From positions 26,143,901 to 26,207,900 of the forward strand of contig OZ038527.1 in NCBI GenBank assembly GCA_964036665.1: DNA of 64,000 bases, in the 5' to 3' direction. Origin of the DNA: Gordius sp. MW1. Its lineage: Eukaryota > Nematomorpha > Gordioida > Gordea > Gordiidae. Under the pieces are notes generated by a model. It was not told the DNA's origin and searched no databases. It saw only the letters and a list, made by a program, of their open reading frames with translations. The position numbers and the translations under genes are program-made. Below, in pieces: positions 30,509-53,415 of this stretch; position 1 is the first letter of the stretch, and each line of letters begins with the position of its first letter.

Positions 30509-30684
30509 GGTTTTTTGGTGTCCGTCCGTCCGTTGTCCGTTACCCTCCCTATCTATTTGCATTGGGTATATTAGGTTATCGCTTTTTTAAATTAATGCAT
30601 GAGAAAGAGGTGCCCCACCCCTCATCTCTATCTCCCTCGCTGTGTTATTTTTTAAATTAATGCATAAGAGGTGCCCCACCCCTC
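30509..30684. repeat. partial third copy (C) of the TIR element
   Basis: Begins inside the GTCC stretch and keeps two GTGCCCCACCCCTCA blocks. It is then cut by the satellite-carrying element that starts at 30685. Confidence 0.75.
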
Positions 30685-31735
30685 AGTGTTGTAAAAAGAC
30701 CTGGGTTTTTTTAGCCGTCCTTTGGTCTTAGTCGACTAAACCAAAAAGACCTCGAGGTCTTTTGGTCTGTTTTCTTAGTCGACCTTTGGTTGAGCTAATA
30801 CTTGGAGAAAAGACCTTAAAGGTAGTTAGGCTATTTTATTTAGCCAACCTTTAGGTTTAGTCATAATTTTGTTAATACCCCAAAGGTTTTTACTTGTTAT
30901 TATTAGTCGACCTTTGGCTTGGCTTAGGTCTGGCGGGGTGGTAGGAAAATAATATATAATTTAATGAGTGAATTTAAAATTAAGCTATATATAGTTACGG
31001 GTAGATTTTTAATTGTACTGATATGATTTAATAATGGTTGAGGGTGATTTTTGATATTGATACCTAGTTGTAAAATATAATTTTAAGAATCAATCATTTG
31101 TCAAGCTAATTTGGTGACAATTGTCATAATGGTCCTTTATAAAGCAAAATAAATTGTTTTGACGGAAATTGGTGGGGTATGGTGTCATAAATATGTTTCA
31201 AACTTAAAATTTAAGTTTGTCACCTAAGCTTGGTGACAATTGTCATAATTGTCATTTTAAAAGCTAGATAAATACTTTTAACGAAAATTGGTCGGTTAGA
31301 GTGTCATAAAAATGTTGCAAACTTAAAATTTAAGTTTGTCACCTTAGCTTGGTGACAATTGTCATATTTGTCATTTTTAAAGCTAGATAAATACTTTTAA
31401 CGAAAATTGGTCGGTTAGGGTGTCATAAAAATGTTGCAAACTTAAAATTTAAGTTGGTCACCTTAGCTTGGTGACAATTGTCATAATTGTCATTTTAAAG
31501 GCTAGATAAATACTTTTAACGAAAATTGGTTGGTTAGGGTGTCATAATAATGTTGCAAACTTAAAATTTAAGTTTGTCACCTTAGCTTTGTGACAATTGT
31601 CATCATTTTTAAAGCTAGATAAATACTTTTAACGAAAATTGGTCGGTAAGGGTGTCATAAAAATGTTGCAAACTTAAAATTTAAGTTTGTCACCTTAGCT
31701 TGGTGACAATTGTCATAATTGTCATTTTAAAGGCT
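30685..31735 (+). mobile_element. satellite-carrying element, TAGTGTTG-family end (array A)
   Basis: Begins AGTGTTGTAAAAA, the end shared with the 202-bp MITE at 2183. About 270 bp of GGTCGACCTTTGG / AGACCTCGAGGTCT palindromic blocks follow, then ~130 bp of AT-rich DNA, then five to six 119-bp satellite monomers (about 31105-31735). The array stops abruptly at the outer edge of the left palindrome arm. The same left end and array start recur inside both arms. Confidence 0.7.
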
Positions 31736-32194
31736 AAGCATTTTACCCCTCTTGATGACAAAGCTTATGCGTCCGAGCACATATGCTAGATATGTGTTTA
31801 CGTCCAAGTCAGAGCAAAACAGCAACTTTACAACTATACGTATAATATATGAAGCTTAAATGTTTTATTGCTGCATAAAAATTTTCTTTCATATTAAATC
31901 AGGCTAGACCCGTTACAATATGAATGAACCAGAGGAATATAAACATTAGATTCTACAAAGTATTTTATGTCATGGTTATGCGTTTATTTTGTAGAAGAAA
32001 CTTAAATTACATTTAAAACTCAGTGACATTTCTTTAAGGCTTATGCTAAGCTTTATCATAAATAAATTGCATAGCAATTAATAAGTATTAATATGCTCTT
32101 CCCCAATTAATTACATATATGCTTTTTATTCCATATCATAAAAGAAGCTTTTCCGTGTAAATTATATTATTGGATAAACTTATTTGGGTAATAA

Positions 32195-32509
32195 AAAAAA
32201 ATTTCAATACAAAAACCCTTAAAAATTAAAAAAAAAATTATGTTTTGCCCCCCCCCCCCAATTAGTCACTGCCCTTTCCTAATTAGACACTGCCCCTCCC
32301 TAATTAGCCACTGCCCAAATTTTGGATAGTCGAGGACCTTTTTTTTTGCTCTCAGGAAAATTTTTGGTAGGGACAATTTTTGGATGTCGAGACCTTTTTT
32401 TTGCTCGCTGAAAAATTTTTAAATTATTTTTTTGGTGTCAGAAAATTTTTTTTTTAATTCTACCCCACCCCCCCCCCCCCCCCTAATTCAAAACCTGCGT
32501 ACGCCCATG
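32195..32509. repeat. MITE remnant, variant CATGGGCGTACGCAGG end (left arm)
   Basis: Right end CCTGCGTACGCCCATG at 32494-32509, with the poly-C tract and CAGTGGCTAATTAGG-like repeats of the family. The left terminus is lost. Mirrored at 50588-50905 and repeated in later tandem units. Confidence 0.6.
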
Positions 32510-33535
32510 TTAAATCAAAGTCATTTTTTTGCTTATTTTTCACGTCAATTATTATTATAGGACGGTCGTGTCCCCTCCTGCGTGGCTAAATAAATTAAGT
32601 GGGCCTGGGCCTTGGACCCTCTTTAACTATTTGTTTAAAAATTTTTGCATAATAAACACTTACCAATTATATTTGATATATTCTTAATCTATTAAAATTT
32701 ATCTATAAAATGATATATATTCTGCTAATACACCCGGGTAAATGGCAAAACAACGTTTGCCGGGTTCATCTAGTGCAAAATAAAATCTAAAGTTAATTTC
32801 TATCATAGCACCTTTCACAATATAGAACGCGAATGGCTTAAAAATATAAAAAAGCCACATATGTATGAAATATATTTTGACAAATATATGCAAAAGGAAG
32901 ATTTTATGGATTCAAGATAATTTATATATAACTTTGCCCGTAGAACACAACGTTAAAACCTATTTGGACATGAAAGGTACGCCCGTTTTAGTCAATTTCA
33001 CATCTTGATCAAGTTGGACGTATTGCAATGTTTGTCGTGTTACTTTTACAAAACACAAGTATCCAAAGGCCAGTGTTCTAGGCAGGATTGCCTCAAGGGG
33101 GGGGGCGTAGATTTTGTATCAAAAAGTTTCGATTAAACAAAAATAATTTAAATTATATACATTCAATATCTACAATGGGTTTTTGATAAAAAAAACATCA
33201 ATATTATCTACAATAATAAGTTTGTACATAAAAAAGCATTAACAATTAATTTGTTTAAATCGTGACCCAATTGCACCTGTGGTCTTTCTTCCATGAGCGC
33301 AATTTGCAAAGAGCTCCTTACAAATTCTCTGTAAACCCAAGCCGGAGCCATTGTTTGAATTTGAAATATGCCTTAGTTTTTTAGGCTTAATTGGTCCCCC
33401 AATACGAAAAAACCAATTGCCCGAGCTCGGTCCGCTAATTTTTTGATAAGCAAGAAACCAGCATGGATCTTTCACAGAGATATTCTTTTATATTTTGCAG
33501 CCTTTTAAATGCAATTTTTTTGTTAATTTTATTTA

Positions 33536-33896
33536 GAGGTTGAGTTGTTGGTCAAAGGAGGGTGCGAGATAGCTACCCACGCCGCACGCTTAGCCCTGGA
33601 ACACCTCCCTCTGGGTGACTCCTTTCTAAAACTGGATTTTAAAAATGTTTTCAACAGCGTTCGCCGCACAGCTTTTATTAACGATTTTATCAAGCTATTT
33701 CCCCAATACACTAACTACATCATTTTAAGTTACGGGTGCCCTTCAATTTTGAAATTTGAAAAATTCTTCCTTGAATCCGCAGAAAGGATCCAACAAGGCG
33801 ACTCCCTAGGCCCCCCTTTATTCTGTTTGGTCATAAATCACATAATTAATGAAATTAACAAACATTGTAAACTCAGGGTTCAAGCTCGGGAGAGGA
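33536..33896 (+). pseudogene. non-LTR (LINE-type) reverse transcriptase fragment, left arm
   Basis: The frame reads LKLDFKNVFNSVRRTAF...ERIQQGDSLGPPLFCLVINH, matching RT motifs (first catalytic Asp in LDF, then GvQQGDpLGPLLF) of LINE-type reverse transcriptases in invertebrates. The fragment ends before the YxDD catalytic box, so it cannot be active. The N-terminal part is also missing. Confidence 0.75.
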
Positions 33897-33949
33897 CAAA
33901 AACTTTTATATATATTTTTAAATTAAATTAATATTTTGTTCTTGTTAAT

Positions 33950-34020
33950 ATCATTGATAATATGAATTTATGACCGTCCGCTGGCTACTGACCAATGAAA
34001 AAAATGACCATTGGCCAAAT
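33950..34020. repeat. single 125-bp-type repeat (CCAATG...CATTGG), left arm
   Basis: CCGTCCGCTGGCTACTGACC followed by the inverted CCAATG/CATTGG core, the same unit as in elements A and B. Mirrored at about 49076-49146 and in the tandem units. Confidence 0.7.
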
Positions 34021-34305
34021 AAGTCGAAATTTTTATGAAACTGGCCGGGAAATGTCCGATATTTTTAAAATGAAAAGGTATTTTAGGAATCGGAAAATGT
34101 TATTTTACCCCTGGCCGCCCTGGGCACCTACGGGTAAAGTTTCGAGCGAATCGGGCGGGTAGTTTCAGAATTTAGCCCTTATTTAAAACTAAAAGGAATT
34201 TTTATTTTAATTTTTTTTTCTTTAAAATTTAATTAATATTATGTTCTTGTTAATACCATTAATCTCTCAAACATATAATATAATTAACACACGAGGACAA
34301 AACTG

Positions 34306-35896
34306 TTTTTTGTGACTATGTTGGATGCTGCTGAAAACAATCTCTCGGCAGGAACTAACGTGCCTTGTTGGGCTAAAAAAATTTTTTGGCTATTTTCGAT
34401 ATCTTGGGATATTTTTTAGGTTTCTTGACCACCAATCCAAGATATTTTGGTAGGCTAAATAATACTAAAATGTAATATACACCAATAAAATTCATATCAA
34501 TTTATATATTACCATCAAGTAAGGAATGATCCAAATATGTATTTAATTCTTCATTATTCGGTTGGATATTACTTCTTAAAATATAATTAATAATAATTTT
34601 AAAAATGCTCTTCTAATAATTGAAATGCTAATGAAGATAATGGCTGAGATGATTCCGTTATTGACGTAGTCGTCAATGTTAACAGAACCTCTAATTCCAA
34701 TTCATTTTTTGCCGTAATACAATCCTTTGACATTTTTTGCCTTTTCAAATCTATCAAGTTAAACCCCGACGTAAAAGTTAAAGGAATTATATAAACATTC
34801 ATATTTATTTAATTTCTCTAATATTAATTTCGTAGATTTTTTATCTTGGGGCTCTCAGCTTTAAAACCAGTAATATATTTTCCAATTTTATCGACATAGT
34901 AGGGGCATAATACTAACGATGGAGTCGTTTGTGTGTAAATGTATTCGGTCATAACATCAAAAGCAGATATTAAAGATTCGATTTTTTTTGAAAAATCGAA
35001 TTTCTTCTTCCGAGCATAAAGGGCCACTCAAAGCCCACCCATCACCAACATTCTAAACAATTATAATAAAAATTAATATTAATTTACCTTATTGAACACC
35101 CTCAGCATATTAAAGGTGCTATTCCACCTAGTTACAATATCAAGGGGAATTTTAACTCCGGCAAATTCTGTAAATTTTTGCATGAGCTTAGGAGACGTAT
35201 GTAACCTTCTCACCCATCTCGACACTTTGATTAAATCCTCTTCAAGAACTTTAATCCCCGCCTTTACCAATAGGTTTATGACGTGTCCAAGGCATCTGAT
35301 GTGATAAATACCCGTCGTTTTTGTTTTAATACAATATGATTTAGGGCCAAAATCATGTTAGTGGCATTATCCGTTGTAATAGCCACTACCTTGTTGGAGA
35401 TGTTGAATTTAGTCTCTATACCCAAAAAATTGTGCGATATTATAACCTGTATATGGGTATGGTAGGCATGATATCTCTATACAAAACTTTGTCATTTGAA
35501 ATGTGCTTTAATAATGTGCGCAATAATACCCAAGTAGGATTTACATTGGACGCTTGACCATACATCCAATGTTAAAGATATATCATCAGCTTGATTTAAA
35601 ATCTCTTGTATAACGATAACTTTATCCTCATACAGACTTTTAATGTTGTTGACCAAGCTAGGTCTTGATATTACTTTTATTGAGGCGTTGATACGCTCAA
35701 ATATATGTTTAAACTTTTTATTTTCAATAAGGCGAAATGAAAGGCCTTCTTCTATTTTTAACATGGTTATTAATTAATTAATTTCTGTATTTCCTCCGCA
35801 GACCTATTTCCCTTTAATATTGATTTTTTCGATGGGTTTTGAATATTGGGATGGCATGTTGTATAGTGGTATTTCAAATTACCTAATATATCGTTT
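34306..35896 (-). pseudogene. hAT transposase pseudogene, left arm
   Basis: Pieces in several minus-strand frames: BED-finger end LGNLKYHYTTCHPN (about 35870), EGLSFRLIENKKF...ISLTLDVWSS (35764-35492), TTDNATNMILALNH (about 35370), LIKVSRWVRRLHTSPKLMQK...TRWNSTFNML (35270-35079), and the C-terminal dimerisation motif VPAERLFSAASNIVTKN (about 34360-34306). This order is diagnostic for hAT transposases. Frameshifts and stops break it at several points. Identical lesions occur in the right arm, so it was dead before the palindrome formed. Confidence 0.85.
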
Positions 35897-36655
35897 TAGA
35901 TAGAAAAATATATCTAAAAAAATTAATAAATAAAAATGTCATTTTAAGGATATTTATGTCTGGCTAGAAAGGATTACCTAAGGGAGGGGCATAATTTTTT
36001 TTATTAATTACATATGGAAAAAACTATTCTTGTTGAGGTTTTTCCACTATATATCTTGTCCCAAACACGGCATTTTCACCTGCTTTTTGACGACGTCCAA
36101 ATATACCTAGAGCGTAAATTAAAGGGAGTTACTAGGCCAATGTTACACGATCCAAATTCTTGTACTGTATAAGCGTTCTGACATTCCATTTCCTTATTCA
36201 ATCCAAAAAATAACGAAGACCGATTCGTGTTTTTTGCATTCGGAAAAACACGAATCGTAGGAAATAAACAAAATTTCTTACTCACGTTTTCATTTTGTGA
36301 TTTCGGTCTCGTGTATCCACCATTTTTCATTCTTTCAAGAATTTTCATTTTATTACATGGAATCAATTAATTGAAGCAAAGGAAAAATAGGAACTGATTA
36401 TGGTATTTGTTTAATTTATATAGTGGATATATTATTTAGGTAATTTTTGTAAGTATAATTCATGAAGATACTTTTTGAAAACAACATCATGGAATCAAAA
36501 TGAAGCTAGAAACAAATTCAAATATTATTGCAAAATGGAATATTTTCTTAAAATAAATTATAATATGCATAAACACTGTTTTCCACATAAGATATTTTCT
36601 TAATAACTCACTTGTAAATTTACTTGTAGTGTGTAATTTTAATTGTTCAAGTATT

Positions 36656-37106
36656 AATCTAAATGCAAAATTAGAATTTTTTGATAGTGGGCCTCTTAGT
36701 TTTCAGATTTTAATATAAAAACAAGCAATAATATTAATAAGACCATGATTATCCATAATCTTAAAAAGAATAAAGGGAAATGATAGGACTTTAATTTATA
36801 AGTAGCATCAATCAATAATACTTCAGGATATTTAGAATATTTTTGATGCTGTTCTTGTGTTTGGGATAACAAGTCACAGAACACATTCCCAATATGTACG
36901 TCTACATAATTCCCATTAACATCTAAGATATTGATGAGAGAAAGCAACTCACTTGATTCTTGCTTTTTATTGGACTTCTTAATCCTTATATTATAGAGAT
37001 CTCTTAAAAATTTTTTGAAGCTTAAGGACATTGGCATCAATGTCATTTATCTATACCACAATCCCTGTTTCCTCAAAATCTAATTTTCTTTGCTTAGGAA
37101 GATGAT
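36656..37106 (-). pseudogene. MULE-like transposase fragment, left arm
   Basis: LPKQRKLDFEETGIVV, then KKFLRDLYNIR and SQTQEQHQKYSKYPEVLLID followed by ATYKL, with a shifted-frame DNHGLINIIACFYIKSEN. The LLIDATYKL...PLF...G pattern is the first catalytic-Asp region of Mutator-like (MULE/SWIM-type) transposases. Only this part survives, with a frameshift. Confidence 0.6.
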
Positions 37107-37432
37107 GAAAATAGTTTTCATCTAAAATATACAATGATTATATACAAACTAATACATTGGTTTTGCTTCCCTCCCAGCATATTTTTGTTCTAAGGCAGAT
37201 GCAAGGGTTAAGCCTGTGGGGCTAAAGAAGGAATATTGTGTTTATTCGAGGGAAAAATACTAATGACTACAAAAATAGCGAAACTGGTATAATCGCGTGT
37301 CTATATGCAAAACATGAATGATTTTTGGTATTCAAATGAGAGTTGGCTCTGCGTATTGGTAACGCTAATATTCAAATGAGGGTTAATTCTGCGTGCGTAT
37401 ATTTCTCTCCGTATCACGACCACTACACTACC

Positions 37433-39152
37433 TAGTGTTGTAAAAAAGACCAAAGGGTTTTCGACCAGGTTATGGCTAAGGTTTAGTCTTGGTCTATTTT
37501 TCAAAAAGACCTCGAGGTCTTTTGGTCTGTTTTCTTAGACCTTTATGGTTTAGCCGATACTTGGAGAAAAGACCTAAAGGTTCTCAAGGTCTTTTGGCCT
37601 ATTTTGTTTAGCCAACCTTTAGGTTTAGTCAGAATGTTGTTAGTAAACCAAAGGTTTTTACTTGTTACTATAAGTCGACCTTTGGTTTGGCTTAGCTGTT
37701 TTGGTGTGGGGGAAAAATAATATAATTTAATGAGTAATTCAAAATTAAGCTATATTATATATAATATAGTTACGGGTAGATTTTTAATTGTACTGATATG
37801 ATTTAATAATGGTTGAGGGTGATTTTTGATATTGATACCTAGTTGTAAAATATAATTTTAAGAATCAATCATTTGTCAAGCTAATTTGGTGACAATTGTC
37901 ATAATGGTCCTTTATAAAGCAAAATAAATTGTTTTGACGGAAATTGGTGGGGTATGGTGTCATAAATATGTTTCAAACTTAAAATTTAAGTTTGTCACCT
38001 AAGCTTGGTGACAATTGTCATAATTGTCATTTTAAAAGCTAGATAAATACTTTTAACTAACGAAAATTTGTCGGTTAGGCTGTCATAAAAATGTTGCAAA
38101 CTTAAAATTTAAGTTTGTCACCTTAGCTTTGTGACAATTGTCATATTTGTCATTTTTAAAGCTAGATAAATACTTTTAACGAAAATTGGTCGGTAAGGGT
38201 GTCATAAAAATGTTGCAAACTTAAAATTTAAGTTGGTCACCTTAGCTTGGTGACAATTGTCATAATTGTCATTTTAAAGGCTAGATAAATACTTTTAACG
38301 AAAATTGGTCGATTAGGGTGTCATAAAAATGTTGCAAACTTAAAATTTAAGTTTGTCACCTTAGCTTTGTGACAATTGTCATCATTTTTAAAGCTAGATA
38401 AATACTTTTAACGAAAATTGGTCGGTAAGGGTGTCATAAAAATGTTGCAAACTTAAAATTTAAGTTTGTCACCTTAGCTTGGTGACAATTGTCATAATTG
38501 TCATTTTAAAGGCTAGATAAATACTTTTAACGAAAATTGGTCGATTAGGGTGTCATAAAAATGTTGCAAACTTAAAATTTAAGTTTGTCACCTAAGCTTG
38601 GTGACAATTGTCATAATTGTCATTTTTAAAGCTAGATAAATACTTTTAACGAAAATTGGTCGGTTAGAGTGTCATAAAAATGTTGCAAACTTAAAATTTA
38701 AGTTTGTCACCTTAGCTTGGTGACAATTGTCATAATTGTCATTTTAAAAGCTAGATAAATACTTTTAACGAAAATTGGTCGGTTAGGGTGTCATAAAAAT
38801 GTTGCAAACTTAAAATTTAAGTTTGTCACCTTAGCTTGGTGACAATTGTCATAATTGTCATTTTAAAAGCTAGATAAATACTTTTAAACAAAAATTGGTT
38901 GGTTAGGGTGTCATAATAATGTTGCATACTTAAAATTTAAGTTTGTCACCTTAGCTTGGTGACAATTGTCATAATTGTCATTTTAAAAGCTAGATAAATA
39001 CTTTTAACCAAAATTGGTCGGTTAAAGTGTCATAAAAATATTGCAAACTTAAAATTTAAGTTTGTCACCTTAGCTTGGTGACAATTGTCATTTTAAAAGC
39101 TAGATAAATACTCTTAACGAAAATTGGTCGGTTAGGGTGTCATAAAAATGTT
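37433..39152 (+). mobile_element. satellite-carrying element in left arm (array L)
   Basis: Starts TAGTGTTGTAAAAAA and repeats the layout of the 30685 copy. About eleven 119-bp monomers (37880-39152) follow; the first is divergent (CTTTATAAAGC). Each monomer holds TGACAATTGTCA and AAACTTAAAATTTAAGTTT. The array ends at the palindrome spacer. Confidence 0.8.
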
Positions 39153-39185
39153 ACGTAATCTGTCAAATCCTAAACTTATGTTGTT

Positions 39186-39795
39186 TATGTGGTATACTTT
39201 GATCTTACTTAGATTGTATACCACGTGTTGGTATATCGCGTTTTAATGTCCGCGGTATACTTTGATCATATTTTGTTTTATTTAATATAATGTTAATGTA
39301 AAAGGGTTAACGAATGGTTCCGCAATCCTTATAATTAAAAAAAGGAATTGGTCAAAGGAAGGCACTTTTACCGCGGGTTAATCTAGACGCGGAAGTGGCT
39401 AATTTTCTTTGACGCTTTCTTTTTTAATTATTTTTACTTTTTATTTTTAACTCAGCCACATCTGTTACTAATCTTTGCAGCCCCGTCTGAAGATTTCCCG
39501 TACTTTGCTCGTTCAATCAAGCCCACCACCCTGGGAAGATTCAACAGCTATAAAAGCGAAATCCCATGTCAATAATGCAGTCCTTGAATATTTTTTCCAA
39601 AACTTTGTACTCTTCTTAAATCCTTGTAATTGTCCCCAATCCCTACATCTTTCCCCTTTTATTGTAATTTTACGAAACGTTATAATTTTATCTTCGCGAA
39701 CCTTTTTTGTAAATATAAAGTCGATTTCGCGTGAATAAGCCATCTTTTAATTTTGTAAAATCTCTTTTTACTTACATCGCTACTTTCGCCTTAGA
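39186..39795 (-). repeat. dispersed ~0.6-kb repeat, copy 2
   Basis: Reverse complement of 12755-13446: GGTATAC cluster at 39192-39260, GGCACTTTTACCGCGGGTTA (39361-39380), AATCAAGCCCACCACC (39518-39533) and TTTTTACTTACATCGCT near 39765-39782. Divergence from copy 1 is considerable. Confidence 0.7.
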
Positions 39796-40179
39796 CCGCC
39801 AGCCATTACATTTGGTATGGTGTTGTAGTTGCGCGCATTCGCAACCACATATATATTGAAGTACAGTGAACTCATACACACACCAAAACCCCCCCCTCTT
39901 CCCTCTCTTATTATTAGCGTCTGTATACGCATCTTATTGTATACGCGTAGTCCCTCTCCCCCTATTGATCGCTATGCGATATATTATAGTTAACAAGATC
40001 TATTTGTCGACGCGCAACAATATAGAGGTACATATCAATCCGCGTGTGCGGATTGGTGCAGATATTTAACTCACGCCCGAAGGAGGAAACCAGGAATTAT
40101 TCTACAAAACGAAAAAGGAAATATTTTATACGGAAAAATTAATTTGAAATTCAAATTGCCCCCCCCCCCCTTTTCCTGA

Positions 40180-40342
40180 ATAGAATGGATAAAATTATTC
40201 CCGTTTGCCATGAACAACCGTCACAGCGCAGGGATATTGGATAAAATTATTCCAGGAACATCCCGTTAGCCATGAACAAAATTCACAGCGCAGGGATATT
40301 GGATAAAATTATTCCAGGAACATCCCGTTTGCCATGAACAAC
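40180..40342 (+). repeat. ~67-bp tandem repeat, about 2.3 copies
   Basis: CAGCGCAGGGATATTGGATA and ATTCCAGGAACATCCCGTT alternate twice, with a partial third CCATGAACAA. Confidence 0.8.
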
Positions 40343-41589
40343 CTAATCTGTCAAAGGAAAAAACCACACAATTTTATTGGAGGTTACACAAGTATATACT
40401 AAATTTTGCTTAATTGGTATATAGTTTTGATATAGTGGATTATTAAATTAAATGTTTTTAATATTGTAAACCCATAATCAAACGTTTGTGATAAAAACTA
40501 TCCGATTGCATTATATCAATTATTATTTTGGTCTACATATATCCTTACCCCTGACCCTAATTTTCAATGAAAGGGAAAAGTATCGTATCTCTCGATACGA
40601 GGATACTTACCCCCCCCCCCCCCTTCTATACAAAGAAATAGACGCCGCTAATTAATTCCGGTACGTGAATGTAAATTGATGTCTACCACTTCAAACGCGG
40701 TACATCCCCCCCCCCGCCATGCACATATATTTCTTTACATTTAATTTCTAATACGCATATGTTATTTTCCCCCCCCCCCCCCGACGCGCTTATATTATTT
40801 ATTTTATCCCCATATATGATTGTGTATCACTGATAATATGCCTGAGTCATTATGATAGTACGGGGATATCTTTTAGATATTCATTAATTTTTTCCTGGTT
40901 GTATTTGTGTAATAGAAATAAAGTTTATACACAAGAGAGATTTTAGTTTAATAATACGACATTTTTACCGGGGAGAAGGTTGGTTTTCCCCGGCCCCCTA
41001 TCATCCAATAAAATCTCCCCAATATATCTCTAAAATCTCCCCAATATATCCTAAATGACCTATCCCCCTTTTCATCAATTTAATCCTGTCACGAATATTC
41101 TTCCCAAGTTATTCTGGGTTCTACTAGTTTTTTAATCATATCACATAATAATTCTGTGGATATGAAAGTTTATTATAAAAAATTAATCAATTGGAAATGA
41201 ATAATCGTATATATAAGTTACTTATAATGCAATTCCTTGATACCCTAGCGAAATTTGTTGATATATATGTATATTTAAATTTATTTAATAGTAATAATTG
41301 ACAAAATATAAGTTATAAATTTATAAAGATGCTTATCTATAGCAAAATTTGTTCCATAATTTTTTTAAATGATTAATAAATTGTTTGTAAATTCTTCTTT
41401 ATTTGAGTTTGTCTATTATAACTTTAAAGTAGTAGGAAAATATTTAGTGTTATACATACATAGATATTTTTATTAAAGATTATTCCAATCGCGCAAACAC
41501 AACACTTCGTTTTCATCTTATATAAATAAATAACACACAACCCTTTGGATGGATAAGTCTGTGTTGACATACTGTCTGTCATAACGATA

Positions 41590-42480
41590 TCATTAAAAAA
41601 ATTTCAATTTCTTTTAAATAAGCAATTTCTTCCTCACTGCACAGTGGCCCATCTGATAGCCAACCATCTTCAACTTTTAAATTGTTTATCGTAGTTATAT
41701 GCTAGGAAAAATATATAATTATAAATAAGAAAACATACTTCATTAAACACTTTTAACATCTTAAATGTACTATTCCACCGGGTTACTATATCCAAGGAAA
41801 TAGTGATTTCGGCAACCTCCTTAAATCGTTGCATCAATTTCGGTAATGTATGCAGCTTTCTAACCCAGCGAGAAACCTTTACGATATCATTTTTCAAAAT
41901 AGATAACCCTTCTTTAACAAATAGGTTTATAATATGTCCAAAACATCTTATATGGAATATCTTTGAAATTCTTATTTGATTTATTATATTCATTACAGCG
42001 ACCATATTTACTGCGTTATCGGTGTTTATAGATAAAACTTTGTCTTCCATGTTATATTTTTTCATAATGTCTGTAATTTTTTCGGCTATTTGTCCCGTAT
42101 GTGGGTATGAAATTTCCAAAACGTAACTTTTTAGTTCAAAAATTTCGTTTATAAAATGCCCAGTTACGCCAATATAAGATAAACGTTGTATACTAGACCA
42201 CTAGTCTATGGTCAACGATATTGAATCGCTCTTCTCAATAATTTGTTGAACGATTATAAACTTTTCCTCGTAAAGTTTTTTAATATTTTGCGTATAAGTG
42301 GGCCTTGTATTTATTTTTATTGAACTATTAATTCGGGTAAACATTCTCCTAAAACTTTCACATTCGATAAGTCTAAAGGAGAGTCCTTCTCTAATTATTA
42401 ACTTTTAATCATATCATTAATTTCTTTATTATTTTCTTCCAGCCAATCTCCCTTTAATATACATTTTTTTTAATGAAAAA
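41590..42480 (-). pseudogene. second, diverged hAT transposase pseudogene in the spacer
   Basis: Minus-strand reading gives EGLSFRLI..., ISLTID-stop-WSSIQ, HTGQIAEKITDIMKKYNMED, INTDNAVNMVAVMN, HIRCFGHIINLFVKEGLSIL and VSRWVRKLHTLPKLMQRF...TRWNSTFKML. It is homologous to the arm copies but clearly more diverged from them than they are from each other. One in-frame stop falls in the catalytic DVWSS region. The C-terminal dimerisation domain was not found. Confidence 0.8.
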
Positions 42481-42829
42481 AATAGTATACCTAAAAATGA
42501 TTAATTGCTTTTTGTAACTGGCTTACTAATGTGTAGCCAGACAGCATCACACACACTCACTCCCTCCCTAGCCGTACCATATTTTACAAGTTATTTTCAT
42601 TGTTTCGCTAAGGCACACGCACAGCACATGCAATCCCATTTTCCCCCCATTTTAACTAGCTAATACCCACCCCACCCATATTTATGGATCTGGCACGTAG
42701 CCAAGAATTGCTAAAAATTAAATCAAACGCTTATTTGGTAAAATTATTTATTAAAAAATAAAACGCACATAATAAAATTATAGATTGATAATAGAATTAT
42801 TTTGATGTAAAAAAATACAAGCATCAAAA

Positions 42830-43300
42830 ATCTCCGAGTTGAAATTTTATTTGAAAAAATATTCGATTTGAGAGTCGGCGAATATTAAAATAATGATTCG
42901 ATTCGAACATTCGATTATTTTTCAAGTTTTTTAATTATGAATTTATTGATAAAAATGCAAAGATTGAATATAAAAATATAAAATGTTAGCAAACATTTTG
43001 AATTTTTTTTAAGTTGAACCTCATATAGTATGTAAAAAGATATTTTTATATTTTGTGTATGCTTATAAAATTTAAATGTAGTGATCGGAGAAAATAACTA
43101 ATTTGCGGAAATATAAAAACAGCTTAATTATTTTTTGTCATGTATATTTAAATAACTATCAACCAAGTATAAATAATTTTTCGAATCCCTTTTTAAAGAT
43201 TCAATTCGGATTTTCGAATCTCACCAGTTAAATATTAGAGTCGAAATTCAGACATAAGGATTTGATCCGAATCTAATCTCGAATCGAATATTTCCCAGAG
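42830..43300. repeat. GAATC/ATTCGA-rich repeat, probable element ends
   Basis: TTCGATTCGAACATTCGATT near 42895-42915 and GATTTTCGAATCTC...CGAATCGAAT near 43210-43290 form two motif-rich blocks around an AT-rich core. This resembles the subterminal arrays of the hAT elements at 24303 and 22772. Termini not resolved. Confidence 0.4.
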
Positions 43301-43639
43301 GTGTACTTTCCACCATCTATTTTTTCTCGTTGATCTTTAACCTTATGTAGGTGTCAATTTCTTTACTTAAAATTATTTCTGAATATTTTCAGCTATTAGG
43401 AGTAGATTTTTTGTTCCATACTCAATTGTTTGTCTTTGTACATTAAAATAGCGCTAAATGAATGAATCAATAACTTTTAATTAATAAATCGTTAAATCCA
43501 ACAAGATTTCCATACACGGATCAATGCCATCCGTTTAGTTATAGCGCGTTTTTATATTTTTTTAGTCGTGTGTGTAATTTTTTGTATACCATTAAATAAA
43601 AATATTGTTTTAAACATAACAAAGAACTACTTAGGCTAC

Positions 43640-43775
43640 TACTAAATTATTCCGGGCCGGGCCTATATTTTATGAATTAGGCCCGGCCCGTCCCGGAATT
43701 CCAAAGCTTCAAAATTTAGGACCCGAGCCCGGCCCGGGCCTCGGGCTGCCCGTGCAGGTCTCTAGTTATGACACA
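43640..43775. repeat. GC-type subterminal repeat, TGCAGGTCTCTAGTT end
   Basis: GGGCCGGGCC, GGCCCGGCCCG and CCCGAGCCCGGCCC blocks end in CGTGCAGGTCTCTAGTT, nearly the same terminus as at 22485. Confidence 0.55.
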
Positions 43776-44174
43776 GTTATTTTCAACAAAATTGTTAATT
43801 CCAAGCAATTTATTATATAAAAATTGACACTCTATCATAAAACTTGTTGGGGTTCTAAAAAACTGATAGAAAAAAAGTTATTAACGAGAAAGATATTAAA
43901 TTAAAAGGGAGATTTTAGCTTCGATTTTCTATCTTTTTTTCTCTAGTCTCTTTTAAATTTGACAAAGCAATATAACCAACCCCTATGACTGATAAATGTT
44001 AATGTTACTGGTTGAAACCCATATATTAATTTAGAATCGTTTAAACTGAGTTATTACTATAAATAACGAAGATAAAAAATATGAATTAAACTTAACAAGT
44101 ATTATGGTACAATTATTCGATTTTACCAACGTCACTATAATAAATTGACAACTAATTTTTAAAAATACATTGTT

Positions 44175-45663
44175 GGAACATTTTTATGACACCCTAACCG
44201 ACCAATTTTTGTTAAAAGTATTTATCTAGCTTTTAAAATGACAATTATGACAATTGTCACCAAGCTAAGGTGACAAACTTAAATTTTAAGTATGCAACAT
44301 TATTATGACACCCTAACCAACCAATTTTTGTTTAAAAGTATTTATCTAGCTTTTAAAATGACAATTATGACAATTGTCACCAAGCTAAGGTGACAAACTT
44401 AAATTTTAAGTTTGCAACATTTTTATGACACCCTAACCGACCAATTTTCGTTAAAAGTATTTATCTAGCTTTAAAAATGACAAATATGACAATTGTCACC
44501 AAGCTAAGGTGACAAACTTAAATTTTAAGTTTGCAACATTTTTATGACACCCTAATCGACCAATTTTCGTTAAAAGTATTTATCTAGCCTTTAAAATGAC
44601 AATTATGACAATTGTCACCAAGCTAAGGTGACAAACTTAAATTTTAAGTTTGCAACATTTTTATGACACCCTTACCGACCAATTTTCGTTAAAAGTATTT
44701 ATCTAGCTTTAAAAATGATGACAATTGTCACAAAGCTAAGGTGACAAACTTAAATTTTAAGTTTGCAACATTTTTATGACACCCTAATCGACCAATTTTC
44801 GTTAAAAGTATTTATCTAGCCTTTAAAATGACAATTATGACAATTGTCACCAAGCTAAGGTGACCAACTTAAATTTTAAGTTTGCAACATTTTTATGACA
44901 CCCTTACCGACCAATTTTCGTTAAAAGTATTTATCTAGCTTTAAAAATGACAAATATGACAATTGTCACAAAGCTAAGGTGACAAACTTAAATTTTAAGT
45001 TTGCAACATTTTTATGACAGCCTAACCGACAAATTTTCGTTAAAAGTATTTATCTAGCTTTTAAAATGACAATTATGACAATTGTCACCAAGCTTAGGTG
45101 ACAAACTTAAATTTTAAGTTTGAAACATATTTATGACACCATACCCCACCAATTTCCGTCAAAACAATTTATTTTGCTTTATAAAGGACCATTATGACAA
45201 TTGTCACCAAATTAGCTTGACAAATGATTGATTCTTAAAATTATATTTTACAACTAGGTATCAATATCAAAAATCACCCTCAACCATTATTAAATCATAT
45301 CAGTACAATTAAAAATCTACCCGTAACTATATTATATATAATATAGCTTAATTTTGAATTACTCATTAAATTATATTATTTTTCCCCCACACCAAAACAG
45401 CTAAGCCAAACCAAAGGTCGACTTATAGTAACAAGTAAAAACCTTTGGTTTACTAACAACATTCTGACTAAACCTAAAGGTTGGCTAAACAAAATAGGCC
45501 AAAAGACCTTGAGAACCTTTAGGTCTTTTCTCCAAGTATCGGCTAAACCATAAAGGTCTAAGAAAACAGACCAAAAGACCTCGAGGTCTTTTTGAAAAAT
45601 AGACCAAGACTAAACCTTAGCCATAACCTGGTCGAAAACCCTTTGGTCTTTTTTACAACACTA
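44175..45663 (-). mobile_element. satellite-carrying element in right arm (array R)
   Basis: The end CAACACTA at 45656-45663 mirrors 37433. About nine 119-bp monomers (44175-45207) correspond in order to left-arm monomers, with the left arm holding about two more. It lacks its far end at the spacer junction. Confidence 0.8.
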
Positions 45664-45989
45664 GGTAGTGTAGTGGTCGTGATACGGAGAGAAATATACG
45701 CACGCAGAATTAACCCTCATTTGAATATTAGCGTTACCAATACGCAGAGCCAACTCTCATTTGAATACCAAAAATCATTCATGTTTTGCATATAGACACG
45801 CGATTATACCAGTTTCGCTATTTTTGTAGTCATTAGTATTTTTCCCTCGAATAAACACAATATTCCTTCTTTAGCCCCACAGGCTTAACCCTTGCATCTG
45901 CCTTAGAACAAAAATATGCTGGGAGGGAAGCAAAACCAATGTATTAGTTTGTATATAATCATTGTATATTTTAGATGAAAACTATTTTC

Positions 45990-46440
45990 ATCATCTTCCT
46001 AAGCAAAGAAAATTAGATTTTGAGGAAACAGGGATTGTGGTATAGATAAATGACATTGATGCCAATGTCCTTAAGCTTCAAAAAATTTTTAAGAGATCTC
46101 TATAATATAAGGATTAAGAAGTCCAATAAAAAGCAAGAATCAAGTGAGTTGCTTTCTCTCATCAATATCTTAGATGTTAATGGGAATTATGTAGACGTAC
46201 ATATTGGGAATGTGTTCTGTGACTTGTTATCCCAAACACAAGAACAGCATCAAAAATATTCTAAATATCCTGAAGTATTATTGATTGATGCTACTTATAA
46301 ATTAAAGTCCTATCATTTCCCTTTATTCTTTTTAAGATTATGGATAATCATGGTCTTATTAATATTATTGCTTGTTTTTATATTAAAATCTGAAAACTAA
46401 GAGGCCCACTATCAAAAAATTCTAATTTTGCATTTAGATT
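45990..46440 (+). pseudogene. MULE-like transposase fragment, right arm
   Basis: Mirror copy of 36656-37106 with the same LLIDATYKL motif and the same frameshift. Confidence 0.6.
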
Positions 46441-47199
46441 AATACTTGAACAATTAAAATTACACACTACAAGTAAATTTACAAGTGAGTTATTAAGAAA
46501 ATATCTTATGTGGAAAACAGTGTTTATGCATATTATAATTTATTTTAAGAAAATATTCCATTTTGCAATAATATTTGAATTTGTTTCTAGCTTCATTTTG
46601 ATTCCATGATGTTGTTTTCAAAAAGTATCTTCATGAATTATACTTACAAAAATTACCTAAATAATATATCCATTATATAAATTAAACAAATACCATAATC
46701 AGTTCCTATTTTTCCTTTGCTTCAATTAATTGATTCCATGTAATAAAATGAAAATTCTTGAAAGAATGAAAAATGGTGGATACACGAGACCGAAATCACA
46801 AAATGAAAACGTGAGTAAGAAATTTTGTTTATTTCCTACGATTCGTGTTTTTCCGAATGCAAAAAACACGAATCGGTCTTCGTTATTTTTTGGATTGAAT
46901 AAGGAAATGGAATGTCAGAACGCTTATACAGTACAAGAATTTGGATCGTGTAACATTGGCCTAGTAACTCCCTTTAATTTACGCTCTAGGTATATTTGGA
47001 CGTCGTCAAAAAGCAGGTGAAAATGCCGTGTTTGGGACAAGATATATAGTGGAAAAACCTCAACAAGAATAGTTTTTTCCATATGTAATTAATAAAAAAA
47101 ATTATGCCCCTCCCTTAGGTAATCCTTTCTAGCCAGACATAAATATCCTTAAAATGACATTTTTATTTATTAATTTTTTTAGATATATTTTTCTATCTA

Positions 47200-48790
47200 A
47201 AACGATATATTAGGTAATTTGAAATACCACTATACAACATGCCATCCCAATATTCAAAACCCATCGAAAAAATCAATATTAAAGGGAAATAGGTCTGCGG
47301 AGGAAATACAGAAATTAATTAATTAATAACCATGTTAAAAATAGAAGAAGGCCTTTCATTTCGCCTTATTGAAAATAAAAAGTTTAAACATATATTTGAG
47401 CGTATCAACGCCTCAATAAAAGTAATATCAAGACCTAGCTTGGTCAACAACATTAAAAGTCTGTATGAGGATAAAGTTATCGTTATACAAGAGATTTTAA
47501 ATCAAGCTGATGATATATCTTTAACATTGGATGTATGGTCAAGCGTCCAATGTAAATCCTACTTGGGTATTATTGCGCACATTATTAAAGCACATTTCAA
47601 ATGACAAAGTTTTGTATAGAGATATCATGCCTACCATACCCATATACAGGTTATAATATCGCACAATTTTTTGGGTATACGGACTAAATTCAACATCTCC
47701 AACAAGGTAGTGGCTATTACAACGGATAATGCCACTAACATGATTTTGGCCCTAAATCATATTGTATTAAAACAAAAACGACGGGTATTTATCACATCAG
47801 ATGCCTTGGACACGTCATAAACCTATTGGTAAAGGCGGGGATTAAAGTTCTTGAAGAGGATTTAATCAAAGTGTCGAGATGGGTGAGAAGGTTACATACG
47901 TCTCCTAAGCTCATGCAAAAATTTACAGAATTTGCCGGAGTTAAAATTCCCCTTGATATTGTAACTAGGTGGAATAGCACCTTTAATATGCTGAGGGTGT
48001 TCAATAAGGTAAATTAATATTAATTTTTATTATAATTGTTTAGAATGTTGGTGATGGGTGGGCTTTGAGTGGCCCTTTATGCTCGGAAGAAGAAATTCGA
48101 TTTTTCAAAAAAAATCGAATCTTTAATATCTGCTTTTGATGTTATGACCGAATCCATTTACACACAAACGACTCCATCGTTAGTATTATGCCCCTACTAT
48201 GTCGATAAAATTGGAAAATATATTACTGGTTTTAAAGCTGAGAGCCCCAAGATAAAAAATCTACGAAATTAATATTAGAGAAATTAAATAAATATGAATG
48301 TTTATATAATTCCTTTAACTTTTACGTCGGGGTTTAACTTGATAGATTTGAAAAGGCAAAAAATGTCAAAGGATTGTATTACGGCAAAAAATGAATTGGA
48401 ATTAGAGGTTCTGTTAACATTGACGACTACGTCAATAACGGAATCATCTCAGCCATTATCTTCATTAGCATTTCAATTATTAGAAGAGCATTTTTAAAAT
48501 TATTATTAATTATATTTTAAGAAGTAATATCCAACCGAATAATGAAGAATTAAATACATATTTGGATCATTCCTTACTTGATGGTAATATATAAATTGAT
48601 ATGAATTTTATTGGTGTATATTACATTTTAGTATTATTTAGCCTACCAAAATATCTTGGATTGGTGGTCAAGAAACCTAAAAAATATCCCAAGATATCGA
48701 AAATAGCCAAAAAATTTTTTTAGCCCAACAAGGCACGTTAGTTCCTGCCGAGAGATTGTTTTCAGCAGCATCCAACATAGTCACAAAAAA
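47200..48790 (+). pseudogene. hAT transposase pseudogene, right arm
   Basis: Mirror copy of 34306-35896 with the same order (BED finger end, DVWSS, TDNATN, TRWNSTF, dimerisation AERLFSAASNIV) and the same lesions. A few substitutions separate the two (for example Ser for Tyr in VMTE-SIYTQTT). The last ~50 bp are also the start of tandem unit 1. Confidence 0.85.
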
Positions 48791-49199
48791 CAGTTTTGTC
48801 CTCGTGTGTTAATTATATTATATGTTTGAGAGATTAATGGTATTAACAAGAACATAATATTAATTAAATTTTAAAGAAAAAAAAATTAAAATAAAAATTC
48901 CTTTTAGTTTTAAATAAGGGCTAAATTCTGAAACTACCCGCCCGATTCGCTCGAAACTTTACCCGTAGGTGCCCAGGGCGGCCAGGGGTAAAATAACATT
49001 CTCCGATTCCTAAAATACCTTTTCATTTTAAAAATATCGGACATTTCCCGGCCAGTTTCATAAAAATTTCGACTTATTTGGCCAATGGTCATTTTTTTCA
49101 TTGGTCAGTAGCCAGCGGACGGTCATAAATTCATATTATCAATGATATTAACAAGAACAAAATATTAATTTAATTTAAAAAAATATATAAAAGTTTTTG

Positions 49200-49560
49200 T
49201 CCTCTCCCGAGCTTGAACCCTGAGTTTACAATGTTTGTTAATTTCATTAATTATGTGATTTATGACCAAACAGAATAAAGGGGGGCCTAGGGAGTCGCCT
49301 TGTTGGATCCTTTCTGCGGATTCAAGGAAGAATTTTTCAAATTTCAAAATTGAAGGGCACCCGTAACTTAAAATGATGTAGTTAGTGTATTGGGGAAATA
49401 GCTTGATAAAATCGTTAATAAAAGCTGTGCGGCGAACGCTGTTGAAAACATTTTTAAAATCCAGTTTTAGAAAGGAGTCACCCAGAGGGAGGTGTTCCAG
49501 GGCTAAGCGTGCGGCGTGGGTAGCTATCTCGCACCCTCCTTTGACCAACAACTCAACCTC
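49200..49560 (-). pseudogene. LINE-type RT fragment, right arm / unit 1
   Basis: Mirror of 33536-33896 (LKLDFKNVFNSVRR...QQGDSLGPPLFCLV), lacking the YxDD box. Confidence 0.75.
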
Positions 49561-50587
49561 TAAATAAAATTAACAAAAAAATTGCATTTAAAAGGCTGCA
49601 AAATATAAAAGAATATCTCTGTGAAAGATCCATGCTGGTTTCTTGCTTATCAAAAAATTAGCGGACCGAGCTCGGGCAATTGGTTTTTTCGTATTGGGGG
49701 ACCAATTAAGCCTAAAAAACTAAGGCATATTTCAAATTCAAACAATGGCTCCGGCTTGGGTTTACAGAGAATTTGTAAGGAGCTCTTTGCAAATTGCGCT
49801 CATGGAAGAAAGACCACAGGTGCAATTGGGTCACGATTTAAACAAATTAATTGTTAATGCTTTTTTATGTACAAACTTATTATTGTAGATAATATTGATG
49901 TTTTTTTTATCAAAAACCCATTGTAGATATTGAATGTATATAATTTAAATTATTTTTGTTTAATCGAAACTTTTTAGTACAAAATCTACGCCCCCCCCCC
50001 CTTGAGGCAATCCTGCCTAGGACACTGGCCTTTGGATACTTGTGTTTTGTAAAAGTAACACGACAAACATTGCAATACGTCCAACTTGATCAAGATGTGA
50101 AATTGACTAAAACGGGCGAACCTTTCATGTCCAAATAGGTTTTAACGTTGTGTTCTACGGGCAAAGTTATATATAAATTATCTTGAATCCATAAAATCTT
50201 CCTTTTGCATTATTTGTCAAAATATATTTCATACATATGTGGCTTTTTTATATTTTTAAGCCATTCGCGTTCTATATTGTGAAAGGTGCTATGATAGAAA
50301 TTAACTTTAGATTTTATTTTGCACTAGATGAACCCGGCAAACGTTGTTTTGCCATTTACCCGGGTGTATTAGCAGAATATATATCATTTTATAGATAAAT
50401 TTCAATAGATTAAGAATATATCAAATATAATTGGTAAGTGTTTATTATGCAAAAATTTTTAAACAAATAGTTAAAGAGGGTCCAAGGCCCAGGCCCACTT
50501 AATTTATTTAGCCACGCAGGAGGGGACACGACCGTCCTATAATAATAATTGACGTGAAAAATAAGCAAAAAAATGACTTTGATTTAA

Positions 50588-50905
50588 CATGGGCGTACGC
50601 AGGTTTTGAATTAGGGGGGGGGGGGGGGGGGTAGAATTAAAAAAAAAAATTTTCTGACACCAAAAAAATAATTTAAAAATTTTTCAGCGGGCAAAAAAAA
50701 GGTCTCGACATCCAAAAATTGTCCCTACCAAAAATTTTCCTGAAAGCAAAAAAAAAGGTCCTCGACTATCCAAAATTTGGGCAGTGGCTAATTAGGGAGG
50801 GGCAGTGTCTAATTAGGAAAGGGCAGTGACTAATGGGGGGGGGCAAAACATAATTTTTTTTTTAATTTTTAAGGGTTTTTGTATTGAAAATTTTTTTATT
50901 ACCCA
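50588..50905. repeat. MITE remnant with CATGGGCGTACGCAGG end (unit 1)
   Basis: Left terminus present, followed by a G-homopolymer and GCAGTGTCTAATTAGG repeats. Right terminus not found. Repeated near 55745 and 60888 with different G-tract lengths. Confidence 0.6.
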
Positions 50906-51950
50906 AATAAGTTTATCCAATAATATAATTTACACGGAAAAGCTTCTTTTATGATATGGAATAAAAAGCATATATGTAATTAATTGGGGAAGAGCATATT
51001 AATACTTATTAATTGCTATGCAATTTATTTATGATAAAGCTTAGCATAAGCCTTAAAGAAATGTCACTGAGTTTTAAATGTAATTTAAGTTTCTTCTACA
51101 AAATAAACGCATAACCATGACATAAAATACTTTGTAGAATCTAATGTTTATATTCCTCTGGTTCATTCATATTGTAACGGGTCTAGCCTGATTTAATATG
51201 AAAGAAAATTTTTATGCAGCAATAAAACATTTAAGCTTCATATATTATACGTATAGTTGTAAAGTTGCTGTTTTGCTCTGACTTGGACGTAAACACATAT
51301 CTAGCATATGTGCTCGGACGCATAAGCTTTGTCATCAAGAGGGGTAAAATGCTTGAGGAGTTAAGTTGTAACAGCAAATACAAGCTCAAGCAGTAAAAAT
51401 GTTAGCTTGTTTGCAACTTTAAATAAAAGTAGTTTTGTAGGAGCAATTGCTGATAGCAAGTTGCTTGTCCATTTTGCTCAACGAATGTGTTAATTAATTA
51501 TGTCTTATGCGATTTTTCCCACCTTTTATAAAACCTTGCATTGTGACCTGAACTAAAAATATTATTAAATATAAATTTAGAAACATTAAGTCATATTAAA
51601 AATGTCAAAATAATTATTTATACAATAAAACATAATTTCGCCATTTATAAAAAATAAATCTTAAAAATCATTTTAGATATATATAATAAAAATCGAGAAA
51701 AAAATGAGTTCGCACCTTTAATATAATTAAAACATTTACACCTTTTCTTAAAAACGATAAAATATAAAGTTAAACCATATTAAAATTGTCAAAAAAATTA
51801 TTACCATCTGGGTGAGACAGATAATTCAAAAATTTATAATTAAATAAATTTTACATGTATAAAAAATAAATTTTGATTTCAAAATATATTTTAGCCATAT
51901 GTAAATAAAATGGCAAAATAAATTAGCCTTAAAAAATATTTATCCATAAC

Positions 51951-52230
51951 AAATAGCCATTGGCATAGGGAGGGGTGGTTTTCCGATTAGAACCCCTCCC
52001 ATGATTTTTAATTTATATAATTTTTACATTGTATATTTATAAAAAAATATTTGTTGGAATTTTATTTTGTATTTTATTATTTTTACGCCAATATCACTTT
52101 AAACTTTTAGGAAACAAAACATTTAGAACTCAAAAAAATCGTTACAAAAAATTTGATCTTACAAATTTTATACCCCCCCCCCCCCCCCCCTTTGAGGAAA
52201 TCCTACTTACGCCTATGCAAATAGCCATGT
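51951..52230. mobile_element. MITE with GGCATAGG ends (unit 1)
   Basis: GGCATAGGGAGGGG at the left and CTTACGCCTATGC at the right, flanked by AAATAGCCAT on both sides. A long C-tract lies near the right end. Present in all three units (also about 57100-57370 and 62240-62525). Confidence 0.6.
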
Positions 52231-52287
52231 TATTGTTGAACAACAGAATGTATTAAAACAAAACAACTCATTATAATGTGATATGAG

Positions 52288-52542
52288 ATGCTATGAGCAG
52301 TGCTTGCTCATAGCATTTGCTCATATTAAACTGTTAGTTAACTTATAATGCTGCTCAGGCACACAGCTCTATACATGAGTTACTTTTTGCTACTATCTTT
52401 TCGCCTCTCGAGCATTTTCATCTGATACTGTATCCTACTCATGAGTAGAGTAGGATACACAGTGCTTGTGAGGGGACAGAGCTTACAGTGAGCAATGCTC
52501 ACTGGAGCAAATTACCATCACTAATTATACGTCATATGACGT
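52288..52542. repeat. cluster of perfect short hairpins (unit 1)
   Basis: ATGCTATGAGCA/TGCTCATAGCAT (52288-52316, 5-nt loop), TGTATCCTACTC/GAGTAGGATACA (52429-52459, 7-nt loop), CAGTGAGCA/TGCTCACTG (about 52485-52505), and the palindrome ACGTCATATGACGT (52529-52542). All four are kept in units 2 and 3. Confidence 0.75.
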
Positions 52543-52589
52543 CTTTATTAAGTGCCAAAACGTATAAAACAACGTATAAAACAAAAAAA

Positions 52590-52760
52590 CTTGACCCCTA
52601 AAAAACTAGTGGACCGATTTGGCTCGAACAAATCTTAAAACATGCTCCGGAGTATGGGGAATAAACTGTAAAATTTTGAGCCAAATAGGTCTGGTAGTTT
52701 TCCAAATTTGGTGGTGGCATACAAACAAACAAACACACATACACACAAACACAAACATAG
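52590..52760 (+). repeat. RTE- or SINE-like 3' tail with microsatellite (unit 1)
   Basis: GTGGACCGATTTGGCTCGAA ... GGTCTGGTAGTTTTCC ... GGTGGCATACAAACAAAC, ending in a CAAACACACA microsatellite. This style of 3' end is known from RTE LINEs and their SINEs. No protein part adjoins it. Confidence 0.5.
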
Positions 52761-53076
52761 TTTCATTTTTATTAATTGACATTAGCATTTTTCCATTTTT
52801 TTAACAATCAACTTGAAAATAGAATATACTAGCTGATTCTCATCACTAATTCAAACTACATAAATTACTCCTGTTTTTAATTTGACTATTAAAAGGTAAA
52901 TTATTTCAATAAAGTTATATTTTAAATTTCTTAAGGTTAACCGTGAAGTTTAGCTAATCCTCATCGTTAATTTAAATTACATTTAATACATATTCAAAAG
53001 CAAGTAATTTAAATTTTATAAATGTTTCTTGCAAATTAAATTAATATGATATGATAACTTGTTTATAAAATTTATT

Positions 53077-53258
53077 TTTATAGTGGGAAGCTGTCTCTGC
53101 ATTCCGAAGAAAAAACACGAAAAGAAGAAAATTGATTTTAAGATTTATTCTTTAAATATAACCACAATTACCACGCCATCTAATGTTGAGATATATCCTG
53201 AAATGGTCCGGCAGGTGGCTCTCCGTGGGGAGATAAACATATCTACAGAACACATGTA
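53077..53258 (+). other. conserved open segment of unknown origin (unit 1)
   Basis: A 66-codon frame (53059-53259) is identical in all three units and is preceded by an acceptor-like TTTTTATAG, ending near a GTAATT donor-like site. It resembles an internal exon, but no family is recognised. Confidence 0.25.
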
Positions 53259-53274
53259 ATTATGAATAGATGTA

Positions 53275-53415
53275 TGTGAGTATGGATCATAGGTACCTAT
53301 GGATGGATGGATCATACGTATGTATAGATGTATGGTTCATACATATGTATGGATGGATGGATCATACGTATGTATAGATGTATGGTTCATACATATGTAT
53401 CGATGGATGGTCCTT
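53275..53415 (+). repeat. GGAT-rich minisatellite (unit 1)
   Basis: About two and a half copies of a ~50-bp unit (GGATGGATGGATCATACGTA and GTATAGATGTATGGTTCATA). Repeated near 58410-58550 and 63570-63710. Confidence 0.85.

Follow-up and report, generated by a model that had tools for sequence, protein, structure and literature searches.

Background

How a large palindrome arose can often no longer be traced. The near-perfect 20-kb palindrome described here lies in a stretch of 64,000 nucleotides of the nematomorph Gordius sp. MW1 (C1:26143901-26207900, C1 being contig OZ038527.1 of assembly GCA_964036665.1; henceforth the window), in which two inverted arms include the ends of a transposon, here named T, together with an edge sequence (X) and part of a macrosatellite whose repeat unit (U) measures 5.15 kb.

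The closest described systems come from human, Drosophila and maize. In the duplication-inverted triplication-duplication rearrangements (DUP-TRP/INV-DUP) of human PLP1 and MECP2, a first junction lies inside inverted repeats and is explained as break-induced replication, while a second joins a non-homologous site with microhomology, where normal orientation is resumed (PMC4352052). The C1 locus pairs the same two junction types, but its inverted repeats are transposon ends only 5 kb apart, its event is of kilobase scale and old enough for arm-specific mutations, and it lacks an inverted triplicated segment between duplications, the interior being present once and flipped, and X and the partial U unit (U') twice in inverted order. 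Galileo, a P-superfamily transposon of Drosophila, is likewise described as an element with long inverted repeats that rearranges chromosomes when it recombines, the copies left behind being chimeric and their flanks displaced; its inversions, however, arise between two copies at different sites, whereas T would recombine its own two ends and so yield an inverted duplication, and its target duplication is of 7 bp rather than the 8 bp of T (PMC2775673). Tetris, a foldback element of Drosophila virilis, also has long inverted repeats with satellite-like repeats (about 220 bp, against 119 bp in T), yet its describers found no Tetris copy that codes for a transposase and favour an affinity to Mutator (PMC4079207), whereas 8-bp duplications and a weak match of hAT-like kind are what characterise T. 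The likeness drawn here is one of structure. Alternative transposition of Ac/Ds in maize also produces inverted duplications, but as described it is a reaction of transposon termini, whereas C1 has one junction inside a satellite (PMC8225341).

Here we propose, with a probability of roughly 0.68, that T, a hAT-like foldback transposon, seeded the palindrome, which would have arisen as an inverted duplication through two template changes.

Results

Anatomy of the palindrome

The window was compared with itself and with the genome (211.8 Mb in 12 contigs); in each genome DNA search at most 40 candidates were scored, and copy numbers are consequently lower bounds and uniqueness holds only among the scored matches. 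BLAST aligned 31736-38926 with 51354-44174 in inverted orientation at 99.4% identity over 7,195 columns, a 7.2-kb match that is far beyond chance and bears out the mirror symmetry reported in a preliminary description of this DNA. That description also gave mirror coordinates summing to 83096 with no net indel, and base-by-base alignment of the arms reproduced the constant sum, with zero indels, from about 33121 to 38034 (e.g. 34095+49001). Its picture of a palindrome with a 5-kb spacer stands for the inverted arms and falls for the spacer as a separate part: the palindrome is real but not free-standing, as spacer and inner arms together form the one transposon T (37433-45663), whose own ends are inverted repeats of more than 1 kb carrying a 119-bp satellite.

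The outer edges, 31736 and 51354, are the limits of the BLAST match, and 51354 is not a natural one, the right arm running on into the 5.15-kb tandem array beyond the window end. Inwards the limit is soft, both arms finishing within the satellite of T's terminal inverted repeats. T's own inverted repeat accounts for the innermost 1.7 kb of either arm, which leaves the outer 5.7 kb per arm as duplicated flank: 2.6 kb of U and the sequence X that borders the array.

From left to right on the forward strand, the left arm comprises U' (31736-34352; 98.8% and 99.0% identical to window units 2 and 3, and 12 substitutions and 6 indels from unit 1) and X (34353-37432), which ends in T's left 8-bp flank, ACACTACC (37425-37432). 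The left terminal inverted repeat of T (37433-39152, forward) consists of an end of the type that we call E (37433-37886) and 119-bp satellite (37886-39152). The interior, formerly the spacer (39153-44172), contains nested repeats and a hAT-like transposase remnant (41670-42200, reverse strand). The right terminal inverted repeat (44173-45663, reverse) carries satellite at 44173-45210 capped by an E-type end, and is followed by the right 8-bp flank, GGTAGTGT (45664-45671, forward). The reverse strand then holds X' (45664-48743) and the outer right arm (48744-51354), which is the inner half of unit U1 of the macrosatellite array (48744-64000; U1 48744-53900, U2 53901-59033, U3 from 59034), itself continuing outside the window to C1:26220300.

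Relatives without a palindrome

Two loci, C8:33797112-33811082 and C3:7177116-7190293, have the arrangement U-X-T but no palindrome, T running from an E end at 33802914 to an end of a second type, E0, at 33811082 on C8, and from E at 7184453 to E0 at 7177116 on C3. A locus on C5 has U, X, E and satellite followed by part of the T interior, and agrees with the U-X-T order up to that interior; at C3:7138408 T breaks off inside the satellite, and at C3:7286270 X breaks off ahead of T. Full-length copies of 34360-37860 (98-100%) are found on C1 (the two arms), C3 (two), C5 and C8, with partial copies elsewhere. Arrays of U are also present on C3 and C8; on C5 the unit is next to X, and C4 has it at one more place.

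Against these relatives the window stands out in several respects. Its T is bounded by two E ends, instead of the one E and one E0 of C8 and C3. The missing E0 end lies alone at 30684-31736 (forward; a 424-bp end and five and a third 119-bp monomers, 97.9% identical to the E0 end of the C8 T), cut within monomer 6 at 31736 and joined there to U'. Compared with an intact U, this join shows about 1 bp of microhomology and is thus a non-homologous, microhomology-type junction of the kind seen in the human rearrangements; one of 40 scored genome matches (292 candidates) spans it, and the other 39 begin at 31736. The array-side E adjoins the 39152 end of the interior in 3/3 loci (C8, C3, C5), whereas in the window the array side meets the 44173 end, and the T interior is therefore turned round with respect to the array. 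Direct repeats would flank a normal insertion; ACACTACC and GGTAGTGT are instead mutual reverse complements, the only mirrored case among the ten T loci of which both ends were inspected.

The right end of the window T is also chimeric, with an E-type cap outside E0-type monomers. Its nine satellite monomers track the nine of the C8 E0 side in order, with 0-3 differences each except for monomer 5, a 112-bp variant, with 8. The switch from E to E0 falls between 37763 and 37812 (mirror coordinates), identically in both arms, and the E0-type state is found at four diagnostic columns within 37812-37967; a junction thus lies inside inverted repeats, as in the human cases. Among the sequences compared, the 112-bp variant, which is monomer 5 of the E0 remnant, has exactly three exact copies, one in the remnant and one in each arm, all on C1. 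Because remnant and both arms have this variant in common, remnant and palindrome most likely derive from one T copy.

Two observations concern the flanks of E0 ends. To the left of the remnant, window 26452-30505 holds a tandem-repeat-rich element twice (26582-27901 and 29184-30509, 97.5% identical) that belongs to a family of many copies, and the listed matches of that family elsewhere (40 of 6,113 candidates scored) all end by 30685, the start of the remnant. The E0 end of T has a different flank at C8:33811082, at C3:7177116 and at window position 30684, with no matching target duplication, even though the E side is the same X, which looks like the outcome of ectopic recombination between T copies. 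A reciprocal partner of the C8 E0 flank was sought, and two of three exact pattern places were read (C6:20589814 was left out), neither being an E-type end of T.

Identity of T

Genome searches with the spacer and X identified at C6:20722638-20729800 two inverted copies of the 428-bp inner-arm end with pieces of the spacer between them. The inverted ends of this copy measure 1,014 bp (98.0% identical) and contain repeats spaced by 118-119 bp, which correspond to the 119-bp satellite, so that T has the long terminal inverted repeats with internal tandem repeats of a foldback-type element. Its termini read [CT]AGTGTTG, a motif that we take to be of hAT type, at both ends of 9/10 T loci and are eroded in one.

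Both ends of ten T loci were examined for target duplications, on the assumption at C4 and C3:24563 that both ends belong to one element. Three good 8-bp duplications were found: GCAGGCAC is exact at a further T copy, T', on C8 (C8:33690681-33696813) and has one mismatch in the C1 copy of T', which is the same insertion, and GGTCGAAC is exact at C3:6536599-6552303, independently of T'. Six flank bases are shared at C3:24563, the ends are eroded at C6:6912, and four loci (C8 T, C3:7177116, C6:20722638 and C4:15519663) have no clean duplication. Left out of this count was a 202-bp element at window 2183-2384, perhaps a miniature hAT-like element, with the same termini as T and the 8-bp flanks GGTGGCCC and GGTGGCAC.

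The transposase evidence is thin. The C6 copy matches hAT-like_RNase-H at an E-value of 9e-4 (19.8 bits, below the Pfam cut-off of 27), which is hardly better than the best match of the window frame at 41670-42200 (E-value 1.7e-3), a frame that gave only unrelated families, all below cut-off, and no hAT family. A PDB sequence search with the hAT-like frame returned three matches (E-values 0.2 to 0.71) and no transposase up to an E-value of 1. Because of the 8-bp target duplications and the terminus, T is most likely a hAT element of foldback form; maize Ac/Ds belongs to the hAT elements as well. No hAT-superfamily element combining long terminal inverted repeats, tandem repeats and 8-bp duplications was found by a single query of the open-licence literature, which is not proof of absence.

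The two copies of T' (C1:26243282-26249752 and C8:33690681-33696813) represent one insertion with the same flanks and lie near the U arrays of C1 and C8, which suggests a long segment common to both contigs, from T' to U-X-T. A giant composite transposon, with U array, X and T moving as a unit, was considered on account of the differing E0 flanks on C1, C8 and C3 and was rejected: its far end should carry the same 8-bp duplication, which was not found there. In that search, for which the C8 and C1 flanks were used and the C3 flank was left out, the flank patterns with at most 1 mismatch occurred at 19 and 7 places genome-wide, respectively (controls 0 and 10), but never where and in the orientation that a composite element would require; T' moreover lies inside the sequence shared by C1 and C8 and not at its end.

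Divergence and age of the arms

X and X' differ at 4 of 3,071 bases (0.13%), compared with 13-25 differences (0.42-0.82%) to four other full X copies, and the arms are thus each other's closest relatives among the X copies compared. Across 33121-37432 they show 6 differences in 4,312 bases, all private to one arm, four to the left and two to the right (12 copies were aligned at two of these columns, 5 at three and 4 at one). These sister arms agree with the preliminary description in pointing to a recent origin of the inner arms. At a rate near 3e-9 per site and generation, as in insects, the inner divergence would correspond roughly to the order of 100,000 generations, an estimate that assumes no conversion and a host rate that may in fact differ.

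Divergence is uneven along the arms, contrary to the claim of only scattered substitutions: U' and U1 differ by 10 substitutions and 6 indels in 31736-33130 and by 2 substitutions in 33131-34352. At columns 32405, 32887, 33119 and 33120 the right arm agrees with U2-U5 of the array to which it belongs, whereas the left arm matches each of the eight copies aligned from outside that array. Array variants have thus reached the right arm without being undone by arm-to-arm conversion, and on the simplest reading the left arm was copied before those variants spread; most simply, the outer right arm would have been homogenised with the array after the event, the left arm, lying outside the array, keeping the older state. 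The suggestion that the arms are kept similar by arm-to-arm conversion is not needed for X, and in the outer part the right arm carries variants of the neighbouring array and not those of the left arm.

Other features of the window

In keeping with the earlier statement that the arms contain only dead transposons, their longest stop-free frame has 134 codons and is a reverse-transcriptase fragment, found in U' at 33527-33931 (RVT_1, E-value 1e-7; assigned to the long interspersed nuclear elements by inspection). X contains a frame resembling hAT transposases at 35079-35773 on the reverse strand, a resemblance only, as Pfam gave nothing, and a fragment at 36135-37215 that we take to be Mutator-like (ZSWIM1-3 RNaseH-like domain, E-value 1.3e-7, in 36696-37046). 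Outside the palindrome, exons of a G-protein alpha subunit gene occupy 14524-20962, the conserved domain being interrupted in the frame at 20159 by a proline-rich stretch, either an insertion or an intron left unspliced, and a retrotransposon at 7574-11276 retains an 851-codon stop-free pol frame with a gag match below cut-off (E-value 1.4e-3), of gypsy type by inspection. Neither Rfam, at its gathering thresholds, nor a search for tRNA genes gave a hit in the window.

Discussion

Proposed origin of the palindrome

The C8 and C3 loci suggest an ancestral order of left flank, E0 end, T interior, E end, X and U array. During replication or break repair, a copying strand would have changed template twice. 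One switch, homologous and between the two inverted ends of T at the border of end and satellite, would have reversed the direction of copying, so that the T interior, X and 2.6 kb of U were copied backwards; at the other, the new end at 31736 would have been joined, with almost no homology, to the satellite of T's E0 end. The expected product, left flank and E0 remnant followed by U', X, flipped T, X' and U array, is the order observed, and the flipped interior, mirrored flank, chimeric right end, junction of about 1 bp and sister arms stand beside un-palindromic relatives at other loci. We infer a single event of replicative origin, in which break-induced replication switched templates, in preference to a crossover of sister chromatids at the inverted ends with later breakage and joining.

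Several points weigh against this scheme. The C8 and C3 copies of T have no target-site duplications and differ in their E0 flanks, and are not pristine ancestors; the E0 diagnostic group comprises three sequences, among them the window's own remnant; and in monomers 2, 3 and 4 that remnant and the right arm are 4, 3 and 3 columns apart. By nearest match, the left satellite is a patchwork of E0-side and E-side monomers, R1-R6, L, L, R8, L10, L11, where the plain model predicts L1-L11, and at least one extra conversion between T's ends, before or after the main event, is therefore required; the patchwork points to recombination between these ends that could predate the palindrome. Nor does every inversion of U require T, which is absent from the spacer of an inverted turning point of U at C3:1435058-1435691, and the evidence base is the sequence of a single assembly.

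Alternative explanations

The alternative that survives best, possible though clearly less probable than template switching, is that sister chromatids crossed over at T's inverted ends and that the resulting palindromic chromatid, dicentric or acentric, broke in U, its end being rejoined to the E0 side. Such breakage-fusion would yield the same chimeric right end, flipped interior and single non-homologous join; as both routes leave the same junctions, the sequence favours neither, but breakage-fusion needs two steps and the rescue of a dicentric.

An improbable history is that the arms are independent U-X blocks united by ectopic recombination between T copies and later homogenised by arm-to-arm conversion. 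Copies of T on C8 and C3 that lack target-site duplications and differ in their E0 flanks are what it would predict, and the satellite does show a conversion patchwork. However, all 6 differences in 33121-37432 are confined to a single arm and none is shared with another aligned copy, and the end of U' is arbitrary, none of the other 39 scored copies being joined to satellite there.

Aberrant transposition, from reversed ends or between sister chromatids as for maize Ac, seems slightly more doubtful still. T is probably a hAT element, and such events make inverted duplications in maize (PMC8225341). New joins at the termini of T with an 8-bp duplication would be expected, and were not observed; the non-homologous join lies instead 1,052 bp inside T's end, in satellite and with about 1 bp of microhomology, which disfavours this route. 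Least probable of all is an assembly artefact, since, for all that the region is repeat-rich and known from the assembly alone, the arms have arm-specific substitutions, four columns have the local-array state in the right arm and that of other loci in the left, the left arm finishes on T's own displaced end, and a 5-kb interior separates the arms, unlike in a missed-adapter hairpin read.

Inversions of U elsewhere

The region C3:1303119-1554672, about 250 kb long, contains U in at least five blocks that alternate in orientation (+ - + - +). The turning point at C3:1435058-1435691 has arms of at least 2.3 kb (99.2% identical), and the roughly 630 bases between them show no similarity to the window at an E-value of 1e-3, which rules out T as the cause of all inverted U arrays; a second turning point lies near C3:1327231.

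Conclusions

Set beside the described systems, the palindrome is probably the scar of a known kind of DNA-copying accident, and an unusually legible one. Seed transposon, displaced terminus and non-homologous join are all still present, as are un-palindromic relatives on other chromosomes, so that a single assembly is enough to follow an inverted duplication through its stages, with array homogenisation visibly eating into one arm; no gene dosage or function is indicated by the palindrome. More tentatively, and with rather low confidence, T may represent a recurrent engine, in which hAT-like, satellite-ended elements undergo recurrent recombination, both of their own two ends and of one copy with another, palindromising and dispersing the 5.15-kb macrosatellite with its X edge (C1, C3, C5, C8); if so, the spread of the macrosatellite in this genome would be driven by recombination of foldback ends and not by transposition. 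With T, a foldback-type and probably hAT element joins the inverted repeats able to seed inverted duplications.

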